Assembly (NCBI RefSeq): GCF_003058365.1
Contig: NZ_CP028858.1
Coordinates: 2,654,836-2,718,835 of the forward strand
Direction of reading: 5' to 3'
Source of the DNA: Halococcoides cellulosivorans
Lineage (GTDB): Archaea > Halobacteriota > Halobacteria > Halobacteriales > Haloarculaceae
Length of the DNA stretch: 64,000 nucleotides
The position numbers and the translations under genes were made by a program. Within the stretch, counting starts at the first letter, position 1. Every line of letters begins with the position of its first letter. The notes under the pieces are model-generated. The model had not been told where the DNA came from and ran no database searches. It saw nothing but the letters and a program-made list of their open reading frames with translations. Of this stretch, positions 18,948-30,219 are shown piece by piece.

Positions 18948-20390
18948 ATGGTGAGTGTCCTCGAAGGACTTCCCCAGAGCGGACTCGAACTGATGTATTT
19001 GGTCGCGGCAGTCATGTTCATTCAGGGCCTCCGCGACATGACCCATCCGCGGACGGCCGTTCGCGGAAACGGTCTCTCGGCCGGCGGGATGGCCCTGGCC
19101 GTCGTGGTGACGGTCCTGTATACCGGTCTCTTCTCGCTCCCCCTCCTCGGAGCCGCACTCCTCATCGGGACGGCGGTCGGCGTCTGGCTCGCAGTGAGTG
19201 TCGAGACCACCGAGATGCCTCAGCTGGTCGGCCTGTTCAACGGATTCGGCGGTGGCGCGTCCGCGCTCGTCGCGGGTGCAGAACTCGTCGACATCGCTGG
19301 CCCCTCGTCGGCCGCACTCACCGTCGAACTCACCACGACCGCCGCCATCGCAGGGATCATCGGATCGGTCACCCTCGTCGGCAGTTTCGTCGCGGCGGGC
19401 AAACTCCACGGCCTCGTCGGCGACTGGCCGTTCGACGCGCGGTTGGGTCACGCGATCAAGGCCGCGCTGTTCGCCGTCGCGGTCCTCGCGGGTCTCGCGC
19501 TGGTCGTCCGCACCGCGCTCGGGACGGCCCCGCTGGCCCCGTGGGTGCCGACCTACTGGCTGCTCGTCGGAGCCGCGGCGCTGCTCGGCGTCGTCCTCGT
19601 CTATCCGATCGGTGGCGCGGACATGCCGGTCGTGATCGCCCTGCTCAACTCCTACTCGGGGCTCGCGGCCGCGACGACCGGGTTCGTCCTGAACAACACC
19701 GCGTTGATCGTCGCCGGGACGCTCGTCGGCGCCTCGGGGCTGATCCTGACGGTGATCATGTGCGAGTCGATGAACCGCTCGCTGACGAACGTCCTCTTTG
19801 GCGGCCTCGGCGGGAGCGAGTCGAGCGAGGACCAGCCGGATATCTACGAAGGCAACATTACGGAAACGTCGCCCGAGGAGGTCACGATGATGCTCGAAGT
19901 CGCCGATCGCGTCGTGATCGTGCCGGGGTACGGCATGGCGGTCGCCCAGGCCCAGCACGCGGTCGCGGATCTGGCCGCGACGCTCGCCGACAACGGCGTC
20001 GACGTGGAGTTCGGCATCCACCCCGTCGCGGGCCGGATGCCCGGGCACATGAACGCCTTGCTCGCCGAGGCCGACGTCCACTACGAGAAGATGCGCGAAC
20101 TGGAGGAGGTCAATCCGACATTTAGCGAGACCGACGTGGTGTTGATCACCGGCGCGAACGACGTGGTCAATCCCAGCGCGAACGAGGACAGCGACAGCCC
20201 CATCGCGGGCATGCCCGTGCTGGAAGTCTGGGACGCGGGATCGGTCATCGTCAACAAGCGTAGCCTCTCCCATGGCTTCGCGGGCATTCCGAACCCGCTG
20301 TTCGCGAAGTCGAACACGAGCATGCTGTTCGGTGACGCCAAGGACTCGATGCAGGAACTGCTCGCGCAGTATCAGGAAGCGACGGAGTGA
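18948..20390 (+). CDS. pntB: NAD(P) transhydrogenase beta subunit
   Basis: A 480-aa subunit with eight or nine membrane helices followed by the soluble NADP(H)-binding domain III. Domain III is recognisable by VIVPGYGMAVAQAQH, GRMPGHMN, and VNKRSLSHGFAGI, the last being the flexible NADP loop. The length is normal for the family. Its last 61 codons are duplicated at 22501-22683 and its last 12 at 21687-21722, separated by foreign genes, so this 3' end appears to be a recombination site. Confidence 0.93.
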   Translation: MVSVLEGLPQSGLELMYLVAAVMFIQGLRDMTHPRTAVRGNGLSAGGMALAVVVTVLYTGLFSLPLLGAALLIGTAVGVWLAVSVETTEMPQLVGLFNGFGGGASALVAGAELVDIAGPSSAALTVELTTTAAIAGIIGSVTLVGSFVAAGKLHGLVGDWPFDARLGHAIKAALFAVAVLAGLALVVRTALGTAPLAPWVPTYWLLVGAAALLGVVLVYPIGGADMPVVIALLNSYSGLAAATTGFVLNNTALIVAGTLVGASGLILTVIMCESMNRSLTNVLFGGLGGSESSEDQPDIYEGNITETSPEEVTMMLEVADRVVIVPGYGMAVAQAQHAVADLAATLADNGVDVEFGIHPVAGRMPGHMNALLAEADVHYEKMRELEEVNPTFSETDVVLITGANDVVNPSANEDSDSPIAGMPVLEVWDAGSVIVNKRSLSHGFAGIPNPLFAKSNTSMLFGDAKDSMQELLAQYQEATE

Positions 20391-20436: not shown

Positions 20437-20931
20437 TCAGAATTCGTCACACCGGCACTCGTGGCCGTGTCTCGAACGGCCGACGACGAAGGCGTGGAGT
20501 TCGTGGGCAAGCGCCAGCATTGCGTCGGCGCGATCCGCCGTCGCGAGTCCATCCCGATAGTACGTTTTCGCGCGGTGGTCGCGCCAGAGATCCGCGAGAT
20601 CGTTCGCCGTCTCTTCGGAGACGATCCCTGCGGACGCCGCCTCGCGATAGACCCCCGGATGGGTGCCCGGGAGATCACTTGGCTGCGTCCGCCCGCGTTC
20701 GAGGAGTCGGAACTCGATCGTGCGTTCGATCGCGACGAACGAAGCCTCGATGACGATCGTATAGTAGCCATCCTCTCGGAGGGTTTCGGCCCCGTCGAGC
20801 AATCGACAGCCCTTCCGCAACTGGAGGAGTGATCCGCTGTCGACATCCAGCCCCGTTTCGACCTCGGTGGGCCGACGGTCGAAGGCCGCGTGCGCGGCCT
20901 CGACGAGGCGCTCGATCTCTGTGCTACTCAT
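20437..20931 (-). CDS. HEPN-domain toxin of a HEPN-MNT pair
   Basis: A 164-aa helical protein starting MSSTEIERL at 20931, a start chosen because it overlaps the MNT gene by 8 bp. The C-terminal RDHRAKTYYRDG segment resembles the conserved basic-aromatic stretch of HEPN RNases and of haloarchaeal HEPN proteins that accompany nucleotidyltransferases. In this kind of toxin-antitoxin system the HEPN protein cleaves RNA and the MNT partner inactivates it, often by AMP transfer to the tyrosine near the catalytic site. The gene faces pntB and lies within a block bordered by copies of the pntB 3' end. Confidence 0.7.
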   Translation of the reverse strand: MSSTEIERLVEAAHAAFDRRPTEVETGLDVDSGSLLQLRKGCRLLDGAETLREDGYYTIVIEASFVAIERTIEFRLLERGRTQPSDLPGTHPGVYREAASAGIVSEETANDLADLWRDHRAKTYYRDGLATADRADAMLALAHELHAFVVGRSRHGHECRCDEF

Positions 20932-21613
20932 CGTCGAACACCCGCCGCCGAACGGCATCCAGTCGATCAGTCGTAACGATCGTCACGCCCTCCTCGAAGA
21001 TCGGTCGGAGCTTCGATCCGGCACGTCGAGCGCTCTCGACGGATTCGACCTGCGCCTCGATGGCGAACCGGTCCCCGTCGAACCGGCGGCGCTCGATCTC
21101 GTCTGCCACGTCGGCAACGGCGCGGCGCGCCGCCGTTCGATCGCCCGCCACGAGGACGAACAGATCGATGTCACTTCGGCGGTCGGCATCGCCGCGAGCC
21201 ACACTCCCGAAGACGACGAGGCCAGCCAGTTCAGAGACTCCCTCGATCTCGTCGATCGACGCTCGGACGGCCTCCCAAAAGGCCTCGATCGGAGCGCGAA
21301 ACTCCGATTGCTCGATCGCGAACAGTGGATCGTCCTTCTGGAGGCGGTCGTGATCGACGGCCACGTAGTTCCGCTGGGGCGTCTCACGAACGGTGATAGC
21401 GCCGATCTCCGCGAGAAGGTCCACGGCCCGCCACACCGTCGAACGGGACGCGCCCGTCGCCGCGATAAGTTCGCCGATCGTAAACTCCGTGTCGTCGGCG
21501 TCGGCGACTAGAGCGAGAATGTCGTCGGCGGCCTCGACGCGGAACACTCCCGTCTCGGGGTCGGCGTCCACGTCGATGCAGATTTTTATCCCTTGTTTTG
21601 TCTCGTCGGACAC
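20924..21613 (-). CDS. MNT nucleotidyltransferase with N-terminal winged helix
   Basis: A 229-aa protein with two parts. Residues about 40-80 form a winged helix-turn-helix (IGELIAATGASRSTVWRAV). Residues about 130-200 form a minimal nucleotidyltransferase with GS at 136-137 and SDID supplying D148 and D150. MNT proteins pair with HEPN toxins as antitoxins by nucleotidylating them. The fused DNA-binding domain suggests that the operon is also autoregulated by this protein. The first gene of a two-gene operon, with a TATA box at leaderless distance (21636-21643). Confidence 0.8.
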   Translation of the reverse strand: MSDETKQGIKICIDVDADPETGVFRVEAADDILALVADADDTEFTIGELIAATGASRSTVWRAVDLLAEIGAITVRETPQRNYVAVDHDRLQKDDPLFAIEQSEFRAPIEAFWEAVRASIDEIEGVSELAGLVVFGSVARGDADRRSDIDLFVLVAGDRTAARRAVADVADEIERRRFDGDRFAIEAQVESVESARRAGSKLRPIFEEGVTIVTTDRLDAVRRRVFDDE

Positions 21614-21686: not shown

Positions 21687-21722
21687 GAGTTGCTCGCGCA
21701 GTTTCAGGAAGCGACGGAGTAG
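21687..21722 (+). repeat. 36-bp copy of the pntB 3' end
   Basis: The bases aligned to 20355-20390 differ at 5 of 36 positions and, in the pntB frame, read ELLAQFQEATE then a stop. It lies just upstream of the HEPN-MNT promoter region and two bases before the stop codon of the next minus-strand gene. It looks like a residual border of an integrated block. Confidence 0.75.
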
Positions 21723-21724
21723 AC

Positions 21725-22291
21725 TCAGAGGTCTTCGGAATCGGGAGATTCCGGCAGTGTAGAATTCTCGACCATCACCTGGGCGTGCGACGCCGATCGC
21801 AGATTCATCGTCCGTGCCTGGATGACCCTCGGTGTGTGGTAGTTGTGACCATCACCGGCGCGAACGACGTAGTCTATGCTTAAAGTCAAAGCGACGTGTT
21901 CGAAGTTGACATTCTCGAACGTGAATTCATTCCACGACGATTGATCACGTAGGCGATATCGAACGCGGTAGTTCGCCTCGGAGGGGCCCCATGTTGGCGT
22001 AATCCGTCGCGGATTGACATCCGAGATGTCCCATTCGTAGGGGTAGTCCCGAAGGTACGGATTAATTGAGTCCTGAAGGCTCGGCAAATGATAGGTGTCG
22101 TCCAACACTAGTTCACCATTTTTCAGGAGTTCGAGGTCGACCGACACTGCAGGTCCGTAATTTATAATCCGAATAAGCCACAATCGCACCGTCGGATCTC
22201 CGCGACCGAAAAAGTAGTACGACCCGACCGACACGCCACCGAGCCCTGCAAGCGCCGCGAGTACCGCTCGTCTGGAAATCTTTTCCTTCAT
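21725..22291 (-). CDS. Tat-exported or membrane-anchored protein of unknown function
   Basis: A protein of 188 aa starting MKEKISRRAVLAALAGLG, a twin-arginine signal; an upstream ATG at 22303 is also possible. The mature part is aromatic-rich and beta-like, with no recognised domain. Base composition is lower in G+C than neighbours, indicating transfer. The gene is oriented against pntB and ends two bases from the 36-bp pntB copy. Confidence 0.65.
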   Translation of the reverse strand: MKEKISRRAVLAALAGLGGVSVGSYYFFGRGDPTVRLWLIRIINYGPAVSVDLELLKNGELVLDDTYHLPSLQDSINPYLRDYPYEWDISDVNPRRITPTWGPSEANYRVRYRLRDQSSWNEFTFENVNFEHVALTLSIDYVVRAGDGHNYHTPRVIQARTMNLRSASHAQVMVENSTLPESPDSEDL

Positions 22292-22362
22292 AGATTCGTC
22301 CAATCGATTACCGTCGATGAGCGGTTCTGCGTTGCGAGCCGTCCGTAATCTTCTTTTCCCAT

Positions 22363-22488: not shown

Positions 22489-22500
22489 ATCGCGGTCACG

Positions 22501-22683
22501 GGCATGCCCGTCCTCGAAGTCTGGGACGCGGGATCGGTGATCGTCAACAAGCGCAGCCTCTCGCATGGCTTTGCGGGCATTCCGAACCCCCTCTTTGCCA
22601 AGGACAACACGAGCATGCTGTTCGGTGACGCCAAAGACTCGATGCAAGAACTGCTCGCGCAGTACCAGGAAGCGACGGAGTGA
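22501..22683 (+). pseudogene. 3'-terminal fragment of pntB (61 codons)
   Basis: The fragment is collinear with 20208-20390 without gaps. Fourteen codons differ and only one changes the residue (Ser to Asp in FAKSNTS/FAKDNTS). The reading frame and stop are kept, but there is no 5' part of the gene. The nearly all-synonymous divergence means the fragment derives from a functional pntB of another lineage, or is the original resident end while the present pntB end was imported. Confidence 0.85.
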
Positions 22684-22701
22684 GCCAGACCGTCCCGACG
22701 G

Positions 22702-24740: not shown

Positions 24741-27440
24741 ATGACCGAGGCCGATGGCATCGTCGGCGAGTTCCTCGCGCTGGCCGAGGAGGCCGACGCA
24801 GACGTACTCACGATGCAGGTGGGCGATTTCTACGAGTTCTTCGACGATCACGCCGAGCGGGTGGCCGAGGAGTTGGATCTGACGGTCTCACAGAAGTCCT
24901 CGCACGGATCGTCGTTCCCGATGGCGGGCGTTCCCGTCGCGGAACTCACCCCGTATCTCCGCGCGCTCGTCGAGCGGGGCTATCGGGTCGCCGTCGCCGA
25001 GCAGTACGAGACCGAAGACGGTCACGCCCGCGAGATCGATCGGATCGTCACGCCCGGAACGCTGCTCGCGACGCCCGACGAGCGCTCGCGCTATCTCGGG
25101 GCGATCGTCGACGGCGAGGAGTGTGGGATCGCACTCGCGGACGTCACCACCGGCCGGTTTCACGTGACGAGCGCCGAGGACCCGGCGACGGCGATCGGCG
25201 AACTCTCGCGGTTCGACCCCGTCGAAGTGCTGCCCGGGCCAGATCTCCGCGGCGAGGACGGCGCGCTCGAACGGATCCGCGCGGAGACCGACGGGCGGGC
25301 GACGCTGTTCGACACCGAGGCGTTCGCGCCCGGGCGCGCGAAAGCACGCCTGCGCGAGCAGTTCGGAGATGGGGCCCTGGACAGCGTCGGCCTCACGAGT
25401 GCGGCGACGATCCAGGCCGCCGGGGCCGTCCTCGCGTACGTCGAGGCCTCGGGCCAGGGCGTCCTCGCCTCGATCACCCGGATCGAACCCTACGGCGCGA
25501 GCGAACACGTCGACCTCGACGCGACCACCCAGCGCAATCTGGAGTTGACGGACACGATGGACGGCGAGTCGACGGGGACCGTCCTCGCGACGCTCGATCA
25601 CACCGTCACCGCGGCGGGGCGGCGCTGTCTGCGCGAGTGGCTCTGTCGGCCACGCCAGGATCGCGCCGAGTTGGAGCGGCGCCAGGACGGGGTCAGCGCG
25701 CTCGCGAACGCGGCGATGGCTCGCGAGGCGATCAGCGACGAACTCGACGGGACCTACGATCTGGCGCGGCTGGCGAGTCTCGCCGTCTCGGGGACGGCCG
25801 ACCCACGCGATCTGGACGCGGTCCGCGAGACGCTTCGCGTGCTCGACCCGCTCGCGGAGATCTGTGAACGCCACGCGATCGACGACTCACCGATCGCCCG
25901 ATTGCTCGACGCGGGCGATAGCGAGACGGTCGCGACGCTCCGTGCGGAACTCGACCGGGCGCTCGTCTCGGATCCGCCGGGGACGATCACCGAGGGCGGC
26001 ATCATCGCCCGCGGGTACGACGAGTCGCTGGATGCGATCGTCGCGGATCACGAGGCCGCTCTGGAGTGGATCGAGACCCTGCCCGAGCGCGAACAAGAGC
26101 GCACGGGGATCACCCACCTCTCGGTCGATCGGAACACCACCGACGGCTACTACATCCAGGTGGGCAACAGCGAGGCGAGCGACGTTCCCGACGACTATCG
26201 ACAGATCAAGTCGCTCAAGAACAGCGAGCGGTTCACCACCGACGCCCTCGACGAACGCGAACGCGAGATCCTCCGCCTGGAAGAACAGCGCCACGAGCGC
26301 GAGCGGGAACTGTTCGAGGCCGTCCGCGAACAGGTCGCCGCCGCCTCGGAGGTGCTGCAATCAGTCGGGCGCGCGCTCGCGGAAATCGACTGTCTGGCGA
26401 GTCTGGCGACCCACGCCGTGCGCAACGACTGGGTCCGACCGGAGCTGGTCGACGGGAGCGAGAGGGGCGATGGGAGCGAAAGCGGCGGGAGGAGCGAGGG
26501 GAGCGACGGCGACGGGGAGAGTGGCGACGACCTGTCGATCGACGCCGGTCGACACCCCGTCGTCGAGCAGACGACGGAGTTCGTCCCCAACGACTGCCGC
26601 CTGGGGGCAGATCGCCGAATGTTGATCGTGACGGGCCCGAACATGAGCGGGAAATCGACGTACATGCGCCAGACCGCGCTGATCGTCCTGCTCGCCCAGA
26701 TCGGGTCGTTCGTCCCCGCCGACGCGGCACGGGTCCCGCTGGTCGACGGTATCTACACGCGCGTCGGCGCGCTCGACGAACTCGCGGAGGGCCGCTCGAC
26801 GTTCATGGTCGAGATGCAAGAACTCGCGCGCATCCTCCACGCCGCGAGTGCGGACTCGCTGGTGATCCTCGACGAAGTCGGCCGCGGCACGGCAACCTAC
26901 GACGGCATCTCGATCGCGTGGGCCGCGACCGAGTACCTGCACAACGAGACGCGCGCGAAGACGCTCTTTGCGACCCATTACCACGAACTCACGGGGCTGG
27001 GCGATCGCCTGCCCGGCGTCGCGAACGTCCACGTCGCCGCCGAGGAGCGCGACGGGTCGGTGACCTTCCTTCGGCAGGTTCGGGAGGGCGCGACCTCGCG
27101 ATCGTACGGCGTCCACGTCGCGGATCTGGCGGGCGTGCCCGACCCCGTCGTGGATCGCTCCCGGGACGTCCTGGAGAAGTTGCGCGCGGAGAAGGCCGTC
27201 GAGGTCCGCGGCGGCGGGTCGAGTGACACCACCCAGGCCGTCTTCGATCTCTCCTCGGGGACCTTCGGCGGGTCGGCGTCGGCTGACGGCGGCCGCGAAC
27301 CCGATCGGATCGCCGACCGGTTCGGGGCGGACGCCGAGCGCGTGCTGGAGGCCCTGGAATCGGTGGACGTCGATTCGACGCCGCCGGTCGAACTGCTCGC
27401 GCAGGTCCAGGCGTGGCAAGAGCGGATCGACGGCGAATAG
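24741..27440 (+). CDS. mutS: DNA mismatch repair protein MutS
   Basis: An 899-aa MutS of the mismatch-recognition type: the GDFYEFF motif (28-34) carries the Phe-x-Glu that inserts at mismatches. The Walker A is GPNMSGKST (about 631-639), the Walker B LVILDEVGRG (about 706-715), and the ATH motif FATHYHEL follows. A roughly 35-residue Gly/Ser/Asp/Glu linker precedes the ATPase domain. Start at ATG 24741. The 3' end, encoding LAQVQAWQERIDGE, is duplicated at 29266-29307 beyond two foreign genes. Confidence 0.92.
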   Translation: MTEADGIVGEFLALAEEADADVLTMQVGDFYEFFDDHAERVAEELDLTVSQKSSHGSSFPMAGVPVAELTPYLRALVERGYRVAVAEQYETEDGHAREIDRIVTPGTLLATPDERSRYLGAIVDGEECGIALADVTTGRFHVTSAEDPATAIGELSRFDPVEVLPGPDLRGEDGALERIRAETDGRATLFDTEAFAPGRAKARLREQFGDGALDSVGLTSAATIQAAGAVLAYVEASGQGVLASITRIEPYGASEHVDLDATTQRNLELTDTMDGESTGTVLATLDHTVTAAGRRCLREWLCRPRQDRAELERRQDGVSALANAAMAREAISDELDGTYDLARLASLAVSGTADPRDLDAVRETLRVLDPLAEICERHAIDDSPIARLLDAGDSETVATLRAELDRALVSDPPGTITEGGIIARGYDESLDAIVADHEAALEWIETLPEREQERTGITHLSVDRNTTDGYYIQVGNSEASDVPDDYRQIKSLKNSERFTTDALDEREREILRLEEQRHERERELFEAVREQVAAASEVLQSVGRALAEIDCLASLATHAVRNDWVRPELVDGSERGDGSESGGRSEGSDGDGESGDDLSIDAGRHPVVEQTTEFVPNDCRLGADRRMLIVTGPNMSGKSTYMRQTALIVLLAQIGSFVPADAARVPLVDGIYTRVGALDELAEGRSTFMVEMQELARILHAASADSLVILDEVGRGTATYDGISIAWAATEYLHNETRAKTLFATHYHELTGLGDRLPGVANVHVAAEERDGSVTFLRQVREGATSRSYGVHVADLAGVPDPVVDRSRDVLEKLRAEKAVEVRGGGSSDTTQAVFDLSSGTFGGSASADGGREPDRIADRFGADAERVLEALESVDVDSTPPVELLAQVQAWQERIDGE

Positions 27441-27472
27441 CGACAGCCGAGCGGTGAGGATACGAGGCAGAG

Positions 27473-27985
27473 TCAGTTGTTTCCGTCGAAACACGTGACC
27501 AGGTCGGGGCGTTCGATCGGCCCGGCGTACGAGACGCGGTCGTCGAGTCGAGGTGCAGCGGACGGGACGAGGTCGATCGAGACGACCCAGTAGTTGAGTT
27601 CGCCCCGAACCTCGTCGGGACGTTCGATCCGAATCAGTCCCTGAAACCCCGCTCGAACGTCGAGAACGTCCACGAAGCCGTCGACAGGGTCGGGAGTTCG
27701 CAACGCCCACATCGCGCAGGTGTCGAGTTCGGTCTGTTCGGCCACGAGTTCGGCCCCCGTCGGATCGAGCACGCGGGCCTCGACCGTCCGCGAGACGGTG
27801 GTCCGATTGAGGATCCGGATGCGAACGGCTGTGGAGTCTTCACACGGTCCGGATCCGACGGGTCGCGGTGGACCGGTGTCGTTCTCGGCGTGGCGGCCCT
27901 CGCAGTCGACCGCCGATTCAGTACACCCGGCGAGACCGCCGATCATGGACGAACTCGTGCCCAGGAGGAACGTTCGTCGGTTCAT
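27473..27985 (-). CDS. Tat lipoprotein of unknown function
   Basis: About 170 aa with MNRRTFLLGT and a lipobox LAGC, so probably exported by Tat and lipid-anchored. The mature domain has a PSVAR-like immunoglobulin pattern with three cysteines and is otherwise unknown. An alternative start at 28003 overlaps the stop of the protease gene (TGATG), indicating coupling. Together with the protease it forms the cargo inserted behind mutS. Confidence 0.65.
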   Translation of the reverse strand: MNRRTFLLGTSSSMIGGLAGCTESAVDCEGRHAENDTGPPRPVGSGPCEDSTAVRIRILNRTTVSRTVEARVLDPTGAELVAEQTELDTCAMWALRTPDPVDGFVDVLDVRAGFQGLIRIERPDEVRGELNYWVVSIDLVPSAAPRLDDRVSYAGPIERPDLVTCFDGNN

Positions 27986-28002
27986 CGTGGATTCGATTCG
28001 CA

Positions 28003-29190
28003 TCACCGTTTCGAGGGGTCGGAGTATAGTTTCATCGAATAGACCGCCGGCCCCACCGTGAAGGTACCTCTCACCCAGAAATCGTCGCTATAACAGACCC
28101 CTTTATTGGTCTTTGTTCCATTAGAACTCGCAGAAGTCATATACAACAGCCATGCCTCCCCCTCAATGACATCGTACGCTGGTCCACCAGAATCGCCACC
28201 TGCCGAATCCGCTTCGCCCTCAACCCCCTCACCTTTGTAATGTCTCCAATCGTCCTCATATGCCGTATTGAATCCACCGTAATCAGCTTTGTAATTTCTG
28301 ATTGCACCCTTCAAATCTCCGGTACTCGTCCCCATCTTCCGGTTTGTATCCCAGAGTTGTCCAGCACGATCCGATATCCCAAGTTTATTAATATACCCAG
28401 AGATCGATATCGAGTCAGATTCTCTTTTAATGTTATCCTCGAAATTGTCAATATTGTGTGATTCCCCAATATATGCGACATCTAGATCAGGGAAACTGTG
28501 TTCAACACGACCAATGTACTGGTCAGCATCGTAGACGGTATTTCCTGTATTGTCTTCCCATGCTTCCCCAACGACGTGGTTGGCGGTAACAAGATACCTC
28601 ACTCCGTTGTGAGTGAATGCAAAGCAGGATGTTCCCCATGAATCGTCTAGCGTTGATTGCTGAAGGACGCACCCTCCGCTTACGGTGTCGGTGCTAATAT
28701 TGTTATAACACGGATACATATCTCCGCCAATCAGACGGGGCCGTTCCTTTTGTGACACGGACTGTTTCGTAACCGGAACGCCCCGGTATATCGATGGGAG
28801 ATCGGTTTCAGGATCGAATCCAGCTTTTCGCGCCACCTCCGGATCTACTTTGACCTCATACTGGAACTTCTGTCGACCGTTCGATCCGCCAATCTTCTTG
28901 TCTGTATTAGTAATGCTTACCGCACAGACACCTGGTTTTGAGAGAAATTCCCCCTTGAATGAGTAGAGTTTCCGTTCTACGTTTTTTCGATGAGACAACC
29001 AAGAAGTATTCAGTTTCTTGCTCCCCCCTACCCGATGCTTTCCGTTGTTGACCCTAACTCGTGTAACACGTTTTCGAGCGCGGTGGAGAGTGCCCTTTCC
29101 AGTGATTGCTGTAACTGGGAGAGCACCCGCCACACCCATGAAAGTCCTGCGTGAAATGGTTCTTTTCCGATCGGGCTCTGAATTGGTCAT
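28003..29190 (-). CDS. Tat-exported chymotrypsin-like serine protease
   Basis: A protein of 395 aa with an N-terminal TISRRTFMGVAGAL Tat signal. A trypsin-fold triad is visible: His in VTANHVVG (about 204), Asp in DLDVAYI (about 235) and Ser in GGDSGGPAYD (about 333). It is therefore a secreted endopeptidase. Starts upstream at 29202 (ATG) or 29226 (TTG) are possible; a TATA-like TTATAA lies near 29250. The gene is markedly A+T-rich against its mutS neighbour, pointing to recent transfer. Confidence 0.75.
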   Translation of the reverse strand: MTNSEPDRKRTISRRTFMGVAGALPVTAITGKGTLHRARKRVTRVRVNNGKHRVGGSKKLNTSWLSHRKNVERKLYSFKGEFLSKPGVCAVSITNTDKKIGGSNGRQKFQYEVKVDPEVARKAGFDPETDLPSIYRGVPVTKQSVSQKERPRLIGGDMYPCYNNISTDTVSGGCVLQQSTLDDSWGTSCFAFTHNGVRYLVTANHVVGEAWEDNTGNTVYDADQYIGRVEHSFPDLDVAYIGESHNIDNFEDNIKRESDSISISGYINKLGISDRAGQLWDTNRKMGTSTGDLKGAIRNYKADYGGFNTAYEDDWRHYKGEGVEGEADSAGGDSGGPAYDVIEGEAWLLYMTSASSNGTKTNKGVCYSDDFWVRGTFTVGPAVYSMKLYSDPSKR

Positions 29191-29265
29191 CTCTTCAGGC
29201 ATACAATCTGTCTCGTTAATCCCCAAATTAAAAAAATATCTAAATATATCTTATAATTTGAGATT

Positions 29266-29307
29266 CTCGCGCAGGTCCAGGCGTTCCAAGAGCGTCTGGA
29301 CGGCGGG
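29266..29307 (+). repeat. Copy of the mutS 3' end
   Basis: The bases match 27396-27437 with few changes and read LAQVQAFQERLDGG in the mutS frame, against LAQVQAWQERIDGE in the intact gene. Substitutions are conservative, as between MutS proteins of two species. It has no stop at the expected place and runs into the next remnant. Confidence 0.8.
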
Positions 29308-29311
29308 CGAC

Positions 29312-29446
29312 TCACTCGACGCCCGTCTCGCGGAACCGCTCGATGTCGACGGGCACACCCTCGAACTCGCTGTTGGTCCCGACCACCGCCGTCGCGCGCA
29401 CAGTAGGCCGACCGAGCCAGGAGGAGTGCGCGGCCGACAACGTGGT
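29312..29446 (-). pseudogene. C-terminal remnant of an unidentified gene convergent to mutS
   Basis: On the minus strand a protein-like frame ends ...AVVGTNSEFEGVPVDIE..GVE with a stop at 29312-29314. It begins without a start and has core-type G+C. I infer the original 3' neighbour of mutS, broken by later insertion of the VapBC module. The upstream limit is approximate and the family is not recognised. Confidence 0.5.
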
Positions 29447-29511: not shown

Positions 29512-29766
29512 ATGAGTCAGTCTGACGACGACGCATACGGCGAGGCCACGGTCAACGACCGCGGTCGGCTGACGATCCCGAAGACGCTCCGGAAAGACCT
29601 CCAGATCGACGCTGGCACGACGTTTCGAGTCGTTCGTGACGGAACCGACGTGCGACTCGTTCGAGAGTTGCCCGACCTGGAGACCCTCTCGACGGGCAAA
29701 TCCGACGAGGAGTGGGAGGGCGTCGCCTTCCGTGACGCTGGCGAGGCCACCTTCGGAGGGGAGTGA
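29512..29766 (+). CDS. vapB: AbrB-family antitoxin
   Basis: An 84-aa SpoVT/AbrB swapped-hairpin protein: TVNDRGRLTIPKTLRKDL near the N-terminus is the DNA-binding strand-helix pattern. The stop is directly followed by the toxin ATG, the usual antitoxin-first layout. The C-terminal half should wrap the PIN toxin. It likely represses its own promoter. Confidence 0.82.
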   Translation: MSQSDDDAYGEATVNDRGRLTIPKTLRKDLQIDAGTTFRVVRDGTDVRLVRELPDLETLSTGKSDEEWEGVAFRDAGEATFGGE

Positions 29767-30219
29767 ATGCGCGTCCTTCCCGACGTGAACGCACTCGCGA
29801 TCCAGCTCGTCGAGGACCACCCTGGCCATCCCTCCATCGCAGAGGCACTCGCACCGGCGCTCCGTGGACCCGACACCCTCGTCGTGTTCGGCTATCAGCC
29901 ACTCCGGGTGCAGTGGATTCTGGAGGATCTCGGAGTCTCGACGATCGACGCGCGCAATGCCGTCGGATCGCTCTTGCAGTATCCGATGGAGAACGCACCG
30001 ATCGACGCCCAGACCATCATGGACGCCTACGAGATCAGTAGCGAGTACGATCACGACGTCTACGACTGCTTTTATCTCGCACTCGCACGGCAAATCGACG
30101 CCGACCGGATCGTCACGACCGACCGCGATTTCGCGGCGCTGTGTGCCGACGGACGAGTCGAGTACCACAACCCGGTCCCCGAAGACGTCCTCACGTCCTT
30201 CGACACCGCTGGCGAGTGA
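29767..30219 (+). CDS. vapC: PIN-domain toxin
   Basis: A 150-aa PIN RNase. Acidic metal ligands are seen in LPDVNALA (Asp near 6), the Glu/Asp cluster around YDHDVYDCF (near 97-103) and TTDRDF (near 118-123). VapC toxins cleave tRNA or rRNA when freed from VapB. The stretch directly behind is non-coding. Confidence 0.8.
   Translation: MRVLPDVNALAIQLVEDHPGHPSIAEALAPALRGPDTLVVFGYQPLRVQWILEDLGVSTIDARNAVGSLLQYPMENAPIDAQTIMDAYEISSEYDHDVYDCFYLALARQIDADRIVTTDRDFAALCADGRVEYHNPVPEDVLTSFDTAGE

Follow-up and report, generated by a model that had tools for sequence, protein, structure and literature searches.

Displaced 3' ends of mutS, pntB and other genes in Halococcoides cellulosivorans point to a probable import of gene ends by one-sided homologous recombination

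The 64,000-nucleotide stretch of H. cellulosivorans DNA analysed here (the window; positions 2654836–2718835 of the single 2.72-Mb contig) carries an intact plus-strand mutS (24741–27440), whose product matches MutS domains I–V and the mutS1 equivalog above cut-off and has its nearest relatives, at 65–70% identity, in Halorhabdus, Salinibaculum and other Haloarculaceae. The first-pass annotation of this DNA had claimed that the end of mutS (27396–27437) recurs at 29266–29307 with conservative residue changes, and alignment bears this out: 40 bp of the working 3' end (27396–27435, repeat D1) return in the same orientation at 29266–29305, with 35 positions identical (88%), an exact 19-bp block at the left and a start-to-start spacing of 1870 bp. 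The mutS-end peptide LAQVQAWQERIDG and the copy peptide LAQVQAFQERLDG are 75% identical over 16 residues and include two conservative exchanges, W to F and I to L; most relatives have Trp at the first of these positions, and the Phe of the copy is unusual. The copy, putatively the displaced former 3' end of mutS, has no stop codon. An opposite-strand reading of it as the C-terminus of another gene (ASSESPAVQTLLERLDLRENLKL) was set aside, with no convincing relatives in 97 genomes.

Two minus-strand genes lie between the repeats. The first (27473–27987, 65% GC) encodes a Tat lipoprotein (MNRRTFLLGTSSSMIGGLAGC...) with no family in Pfam, NCBIfam or PHROG, and the second (28003–29226, 48.5% GC) a predicted Tat-exported trypsin-like protease. 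The assignment of the latter as a serine protease holds to the extent that the Trypsin_2 profile is matched, but solely below its cut-off (E=0.0022); its relatives are only distant (25–31%), some of them on haloarchaeal plasmids, and none were found when sought in phages. The region upstream of the protease gene (29227–29265) is A+T-rich, with 11% GC over 29227–29262, and the right joint of the insert would fall at its end. The cassette had been described as A+T-rich, which is true of the protease gene and of these 36 bp before the copy but not of the lipoprotein gene. Immediately beyond the copy, the reported C-terminal remnant of a convergent gene (29312–29404, minus strand) ends in the peptide FEGVPVDIERFRETGVE, with its stop at 29312–29314. 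PIN toxin C-termini match it at 48–57% with a coinciding stop, and a full-length relative matches PF01850, identifying the remnant as the C-terminus of a VapC-type toxin. A DNA match of this region to a TnpB-like gene in genome G143 was dropped, as it needs four gaps in 60 bp while the VapC reading has the matching stop. The VapBC module reported after the remnant is also confirmed, with a VapB-type antitoxin of the MazE/AbrB fold (29512–29766, plus strand, PF04014) and a VapC-type PIN toxin (29767–30219, plus strand, PF01850), both above their Pfam cut-offs.

A companion locus lies at pntB (18948–20390, plus strand), which matches NCBIfam PRK09444 at E=1e-131, below the cut-off of that model, and has orthologues in 32 of 142 family genomes. 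Behind it stands a first minus-strand cassette (20437–21613), comprising an MNT-type nucleotidyltransferase gene with an HTH (20924–21613; PF01909 and PF18765, with a weak match to MntA) and a partner gene (20437–20958) that would be a HEPN; the pair is likely a toxin-antitoxin. It is followed on the plus strand by 30 bp of a displaced pntB end with its own stop TAG (21691–21722), identical to the working end at 29 of 30 positions, then by a second cassette, a minus-strand gene for a 192-residue Tat-type protein that matches no family (21725–22303, 54% GC), and then by a longer displaced end including the stop codon (22496–22685, plus strand; 173 of 190 positions identical). Sites within 3 mismatches of the 30-bp end number three in 1.16 Mb, all at the pntB locus. 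The pntB case is thus stronger than first claimed, having a second displaced end besides the 190-bp copy, and the occurrence of two such ends in series makes it probable, on sequence grounds, that the two cassettes were added one after another.

The earlier proposal that a second case within 10 kb makes a common mechanism likely can be examined by comparing gene ends with downstream sequence genome-wide. For each gene we compared the terminal 200 bp with the 3 kb that follow it, taking the downstream regions of genes elsewhere as the null (733,824 gene-end/downstream pairs from different places), in the window and in evenly spaced stretches that together amount to 1.164 Mb, or 43% of the genome, with 879 genes called in this analysis. 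Downstream matches of at least 50 bits were found for 21 genes, against 0.66 expected; over 464 kb the figures were 5 and 0.07. Short matches of the mutS kind (at most 70 bp and at least 50 bits, ending at most 10 bp from the stop) occurred four times, mutS included, where 0.008 are expected per 879 genes. These figures bear on whether the 40-bp mutS match could have arisen by chance between G+C-rich coding sequences. No other case is shorter, and the whole genomes of relatives do yield unrelated matches to the region at similar score, but the expectation of 0.008 applies once the search is limited to 3 kb downstream, to the same orientation and to matches ending at the stop, and seven other such copies occur in the genome. 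Together with the poor showing of the opposite-strand reading, this leaves chance highly improbable. A lack of any excess had been named beforehand as the refuting outcome, and the genome shows the opposite. The excess, and the signature described below, support a common mechanism for mutS and pntB; although the window had been selected for such cases, six of the final eight lie outside it.

Several kinds of downstream match were removed from the count: toxin-cassette arrays (loci L152 and L155), full tandem paralogues, C-terminal domains common to adjacent secreted proteins (L157, L158, L161 and L167) and, in relatives, minisatellites that contain a gene end (L207 in Halorhabdus G070 and L211 in G001). 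The G070 minisatellite region (L207+L208) has a gene for a DP2-like polymerase (1676 residues) whose final 39 bp fall within a 147-bp tandem repeat, with nearly identical copies downstream. The array at 140001–180000 of the H. cellulosivorans genome (L152+L172, at ~6.4–20 kb) consists of tandem, partly truncated cassettes, in which a 1158-residue repetitive protein is followed by alternating paralogues of ~385 and 370–410 residues, and resembles a polymorphic-toxin locus carrying orphan C-terminal and immunity modules. That at 560001–600000 (L155+L175, at ~20–47 kb) is a run of tandem paralogues, in which Tat proteins of 600–720 residues are found with proteins of 195–300 residues starting ILGHDEEDCGIEV.

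Eight genes in the 1.16 Mb remain whose 3' end alone is repeated, 0.1–2.3 kb downstream: pntB (190 bp, 91% identity, at +2106), an isoleucyl/valyl-type aminoacyl-tRNA synthetase of ~1100 residues (227 bp, 88%, +107), an XPB-like helicase (139 bp, 84%, +1257), purQ (101 bp, 88%, +1138), a deoxyhypusine-synthase-like gene (68 bp, 91%, +596), a pgi-like gene (62 bp, 90%, +1154), a glycosyltransferase (58 bp, 79%, +627) and mutS (40 bp, 88%, +1826), the names other than mutS and pntB being our readings of the sequences. Extrapolation gives ~19 such copies per genome. No comparable copy of a 5' end was found in this genome (1.16 Mb, with starts re-estimated and with toxin arrays and paralogues set aside), a contrast of eight to none in which the numbers are small. 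In pntB, the synthetase, purQ and the helicase the homology runs as far as the stop codon (+0 to +6), as it does in an infB case from Halorhabdus G070 described below; in mutS and the pgi-like, deoxyhypusine-synthase-like and glycosyltransferase genes it stops 4–5 bp short of it. Some of these loci have further features. In the synthetase case no gene intervenes between working end and copy, and behind that scar (L159+L179, 13403–14203) lies a gene for a 266-residue protein with a Tat-type signal and a hydrophobic C-terminal part, which has no Pfam match and is halocin-like just by eye. Two scars (L152+L172+L357 and L158+L178+L363) hold opposite-strand single-gene inserts encoding membrane proteins of 115 and 145 residues that are alike by eye, as if one membrane-protein family had repeatedly been dropped behind gene ends.

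The differences between working ends and copies are unevenly distributed over codon positions 1/2/3: 4/1/23 in the synthetase, 2/1/9 in purQ, 3/2/16 in the helicase, 2/1/14 in the longer pntB copy, 1/1/4 in the deoxyhypusine-synthase-like gene and 1/3/8 in the glycosyltransferase. Pooled over these six cases they amount to 13/9/74 (p=2e-18 versus an even spread), and neutral change accounts for at most ~34% of them. As the differences fall mostly at third positions (74 of 96), the two ends in the longer cases are shown, at the level of sequence, to be alleles that diverged as working genes under selection and not decayed duplicates. The pgi-like copy (2/2/2) is too short to tell, and the mutS copy (1/1/3) has too few differences for the allele test. 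Residue 455 of pntB points the same way: 28 of 29 relatives have Asp there, as does the copy, against Ser in the working gene, so the copy does not derive from the present gene.

These observations weigh against a simple duplication, in which a 3' end is copied in place by slippage or unequal exchange, genes are later inserted between, and the copy decays without function. Relatives do have tandem repeats containing gene ends, as in the G070 and G001 minisatellites, and the short mutS and pgi-like copies, taken alone, would be compatible with such an origin. The third-position excess, however, limits neutral decay to about a third of the pooled differences, the pntB copy keeps the family residue that the working gene has changed, and copy identities cluster at 79–91% with none near 100%. 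The pattern expected of tandem duplication with decay, a copy made from the present gene with an even codon spread, is absent from the six pooled cases, mutS alone being too short to judge, and we consider in-place duplication unlikely.

Which of the two ends is original can be read where the copy still adjoins an ancestral neighbour. At purQ, the gene after the copy, for a radical-SAM-like protein, stands convergent beside purQ in 8 of 30 loci, while the inserted alpha/beta hydrolase gene is beside no other purQ among the 30. At infB of Halorhabdus G070, a 143-residue gene after the copy is found near infB in 18 of 30 loci (its own included) and pdaD in 12 of 30, and the inserted HTH gene was seen in only three genomes, all of Halorhabdus. 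Judged from gene neighbourhoods, both of these resolvable cases mark the copy as the original end; the working end would have come with its cassette from outside. The opposite polarity, with the copy arriving as part of foreign downstream DNA and the genes between being native, draws what room it has from the lack of any conserved neighbour to set a direction at mutS (compared in 80 relatives) and, on either side, at pntB, the helicase and the pgi-like gene; with purQ and infB pointing the other way, it seems decidedly improbable. For mutS, we take by analogy with the resolvable cases that the copy would be the original end, and that the last 42 bp of the gene, its working 3' end, would have been imported together with the cassette.

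The infB insert is shared by Halorhabdus G067 (89%), whose copy has an internal stop and whose displaced end has a lineage-specific motif (AAACACCGGAATCGGGA) that recurs at its own working infB end. This suggests later gene conversion between the ends; unless that took place, or the event was an independent one, the motif counts against the displacement reading. Other genes stand behind infB in G071–G073, where the infB match is recorded as containing one internal TGA in all three genomes. The 400 kb of G070 contain two 3'-end cases, infB and a photolyase-like gene, and the 400 kb of G001 none, although one short exact 5' repeat was seen there.

It is probable, in our assessment, that the mutS copy is a displaced former 3' end, left when a new gene end was imported by one-sided homologous recombination with DNA of a relative. 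DNA from a related species, carrying a mutS 3' end with the lipoprotein and protease genes downstream, would have recombined homologously into the host mutS. The other side would have been joined near the host gene end without extended homology, either directly, by homology-facilitated illegitimate recombination, or after the fragment had first been circularised, by a single crossover; circularisation is a reported fate of linear DNA in E. coli (PMC3240628). The product would be a whole mutS with a new 3' end, then the cassette, then the old end beyond it. The gene end occurs in two allelic forms, which homologous entry would require but which do not by themselves place a crossover; an original end still beside its old neighbour, and foreign DNA gained at a conserved anchor, are seen at purQ and Halorhabdus infB. 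Who the donor was and how the non-homologous side was joined are inferred. Weighing against this reading of mutS are the shortness of its copy (40 bp), the missing stop codon and the unusual Phe. Nothing in the recombination step itself predicts a 3' bias; the missing 5' counterparts probably reflect selection against promoter-bearing gene fragments and altered promoters.

A small element that uses a gene 3' end as its attachment site and brings a replacement end, as tyrosine-recombinase elements do at tRNA genes, would produce the same architecture, and the core could then be the 19 bp that match exactly at the left of the mutS repeat. Profile scans of the inserts revealed no recombinase or transposase, however, and no tRNA lies nearby; gene and sequence differ each time, with no identical core common to the insertions, the other cases lack an exact left core and have scattered differences, and the synthetase case has no intervening gene. 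We regard site-specific integration as very unlikely. Signs of a transposon or IS were likewise absent, there being no inverted repeat at the insert ends and the repeats being diverged gene ends, not exact duplications.

In Neisseria, minimal mobile elements are sets of accessory genes exchanged by homologous recombination in flanking genes. One-sided import resembles both these elements and additive transfer in Aeromonas (PMC11375855) in that accessory genes lacking mobility functions are swapped at sites between conserved genes through recombination in the flanking genes. Classical flanking-gene exchange relies on two homologous flanks and produces no duplicate, whereas one-sided import has a single one and leaves a displaced end behind. 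It would also share with homology-facilitated illegitimate recombination in Acinetobacter, Streptococcus pneumoniae and Pseudomonas stutzeri, and in E. coli conjugation (PMC3240628), one homologous and one non-homologous side and the placing of foreign DNA beside a conserved anchor. Those were selected laboratory events in bacteria, whereas ours are inferred from genome scars in an archaeon, always anchored at a gene 3' end. Comparable too are the T6SS effector ends and immunity arrays of Vibrio cholerae, and orphan Rhs 3' ends, where a new module entering via homology displaces the former 3' end downstream, more than once at a given locus, the immunity arrays being explained by one-sided homologous entry with non-homologous joining (PMC5361080). 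The pntB locus with its two displaced ends presents the same picture of sequential displacement, although the V. cholerae genes are toxin genes selected for immunity and ours are housekeeping genes that keep just a short, non-functional end.

Among haloarchaea, exchange between cells by fusion is documented. The deletion-coupled insertions of Haloquadratum walsbyi are likewise exchanges of accessory segments in fixed places between conserved genes; no targeting sequence is involved, and the mechanism is called undescribed. They replace sequence, however, and duplicated gene ends are not the feature reported in the part consulted (PMC3119063). Displaced-end scars may be relevant to these insertions. 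It is conceivable, though we think it doubtful, that haloarchaea have a recurrent 3'-directed gene gain in which cassettes are dropped repeatedly behind a gene end, so that displaced ends pile up in order; such a route could explain deletion-coupled insertions and would build the 3' bias into the mechanism and not leave it to selection alone. While the general kind of event is already known, the 3' bias and the recurrence at archaeal housekeeping genes look new; a literature search returned no report of such a pattern in haloarchaea, which is weak evidence of novelty.

Displaced gene ends can be viewed as fossils of single gene-gain events. They tell which side of an insertion is new, which of the gene ends was replaced and the order of cassette arrival, and they do so from one genome, with no need of a close relative. 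Such scars matter for annotation, since gene callers will predict spurious short genes there, and for gene trees, since a housekeeping gene may be foreign in its terminal part. If general in haloarchaea, displaced ends would offer a way to test how genomes acquire accessory genes, such as the toxin-antitoxin pairs, secreted proteins and small membrane proteins seen here, in the absence of mobility genes.
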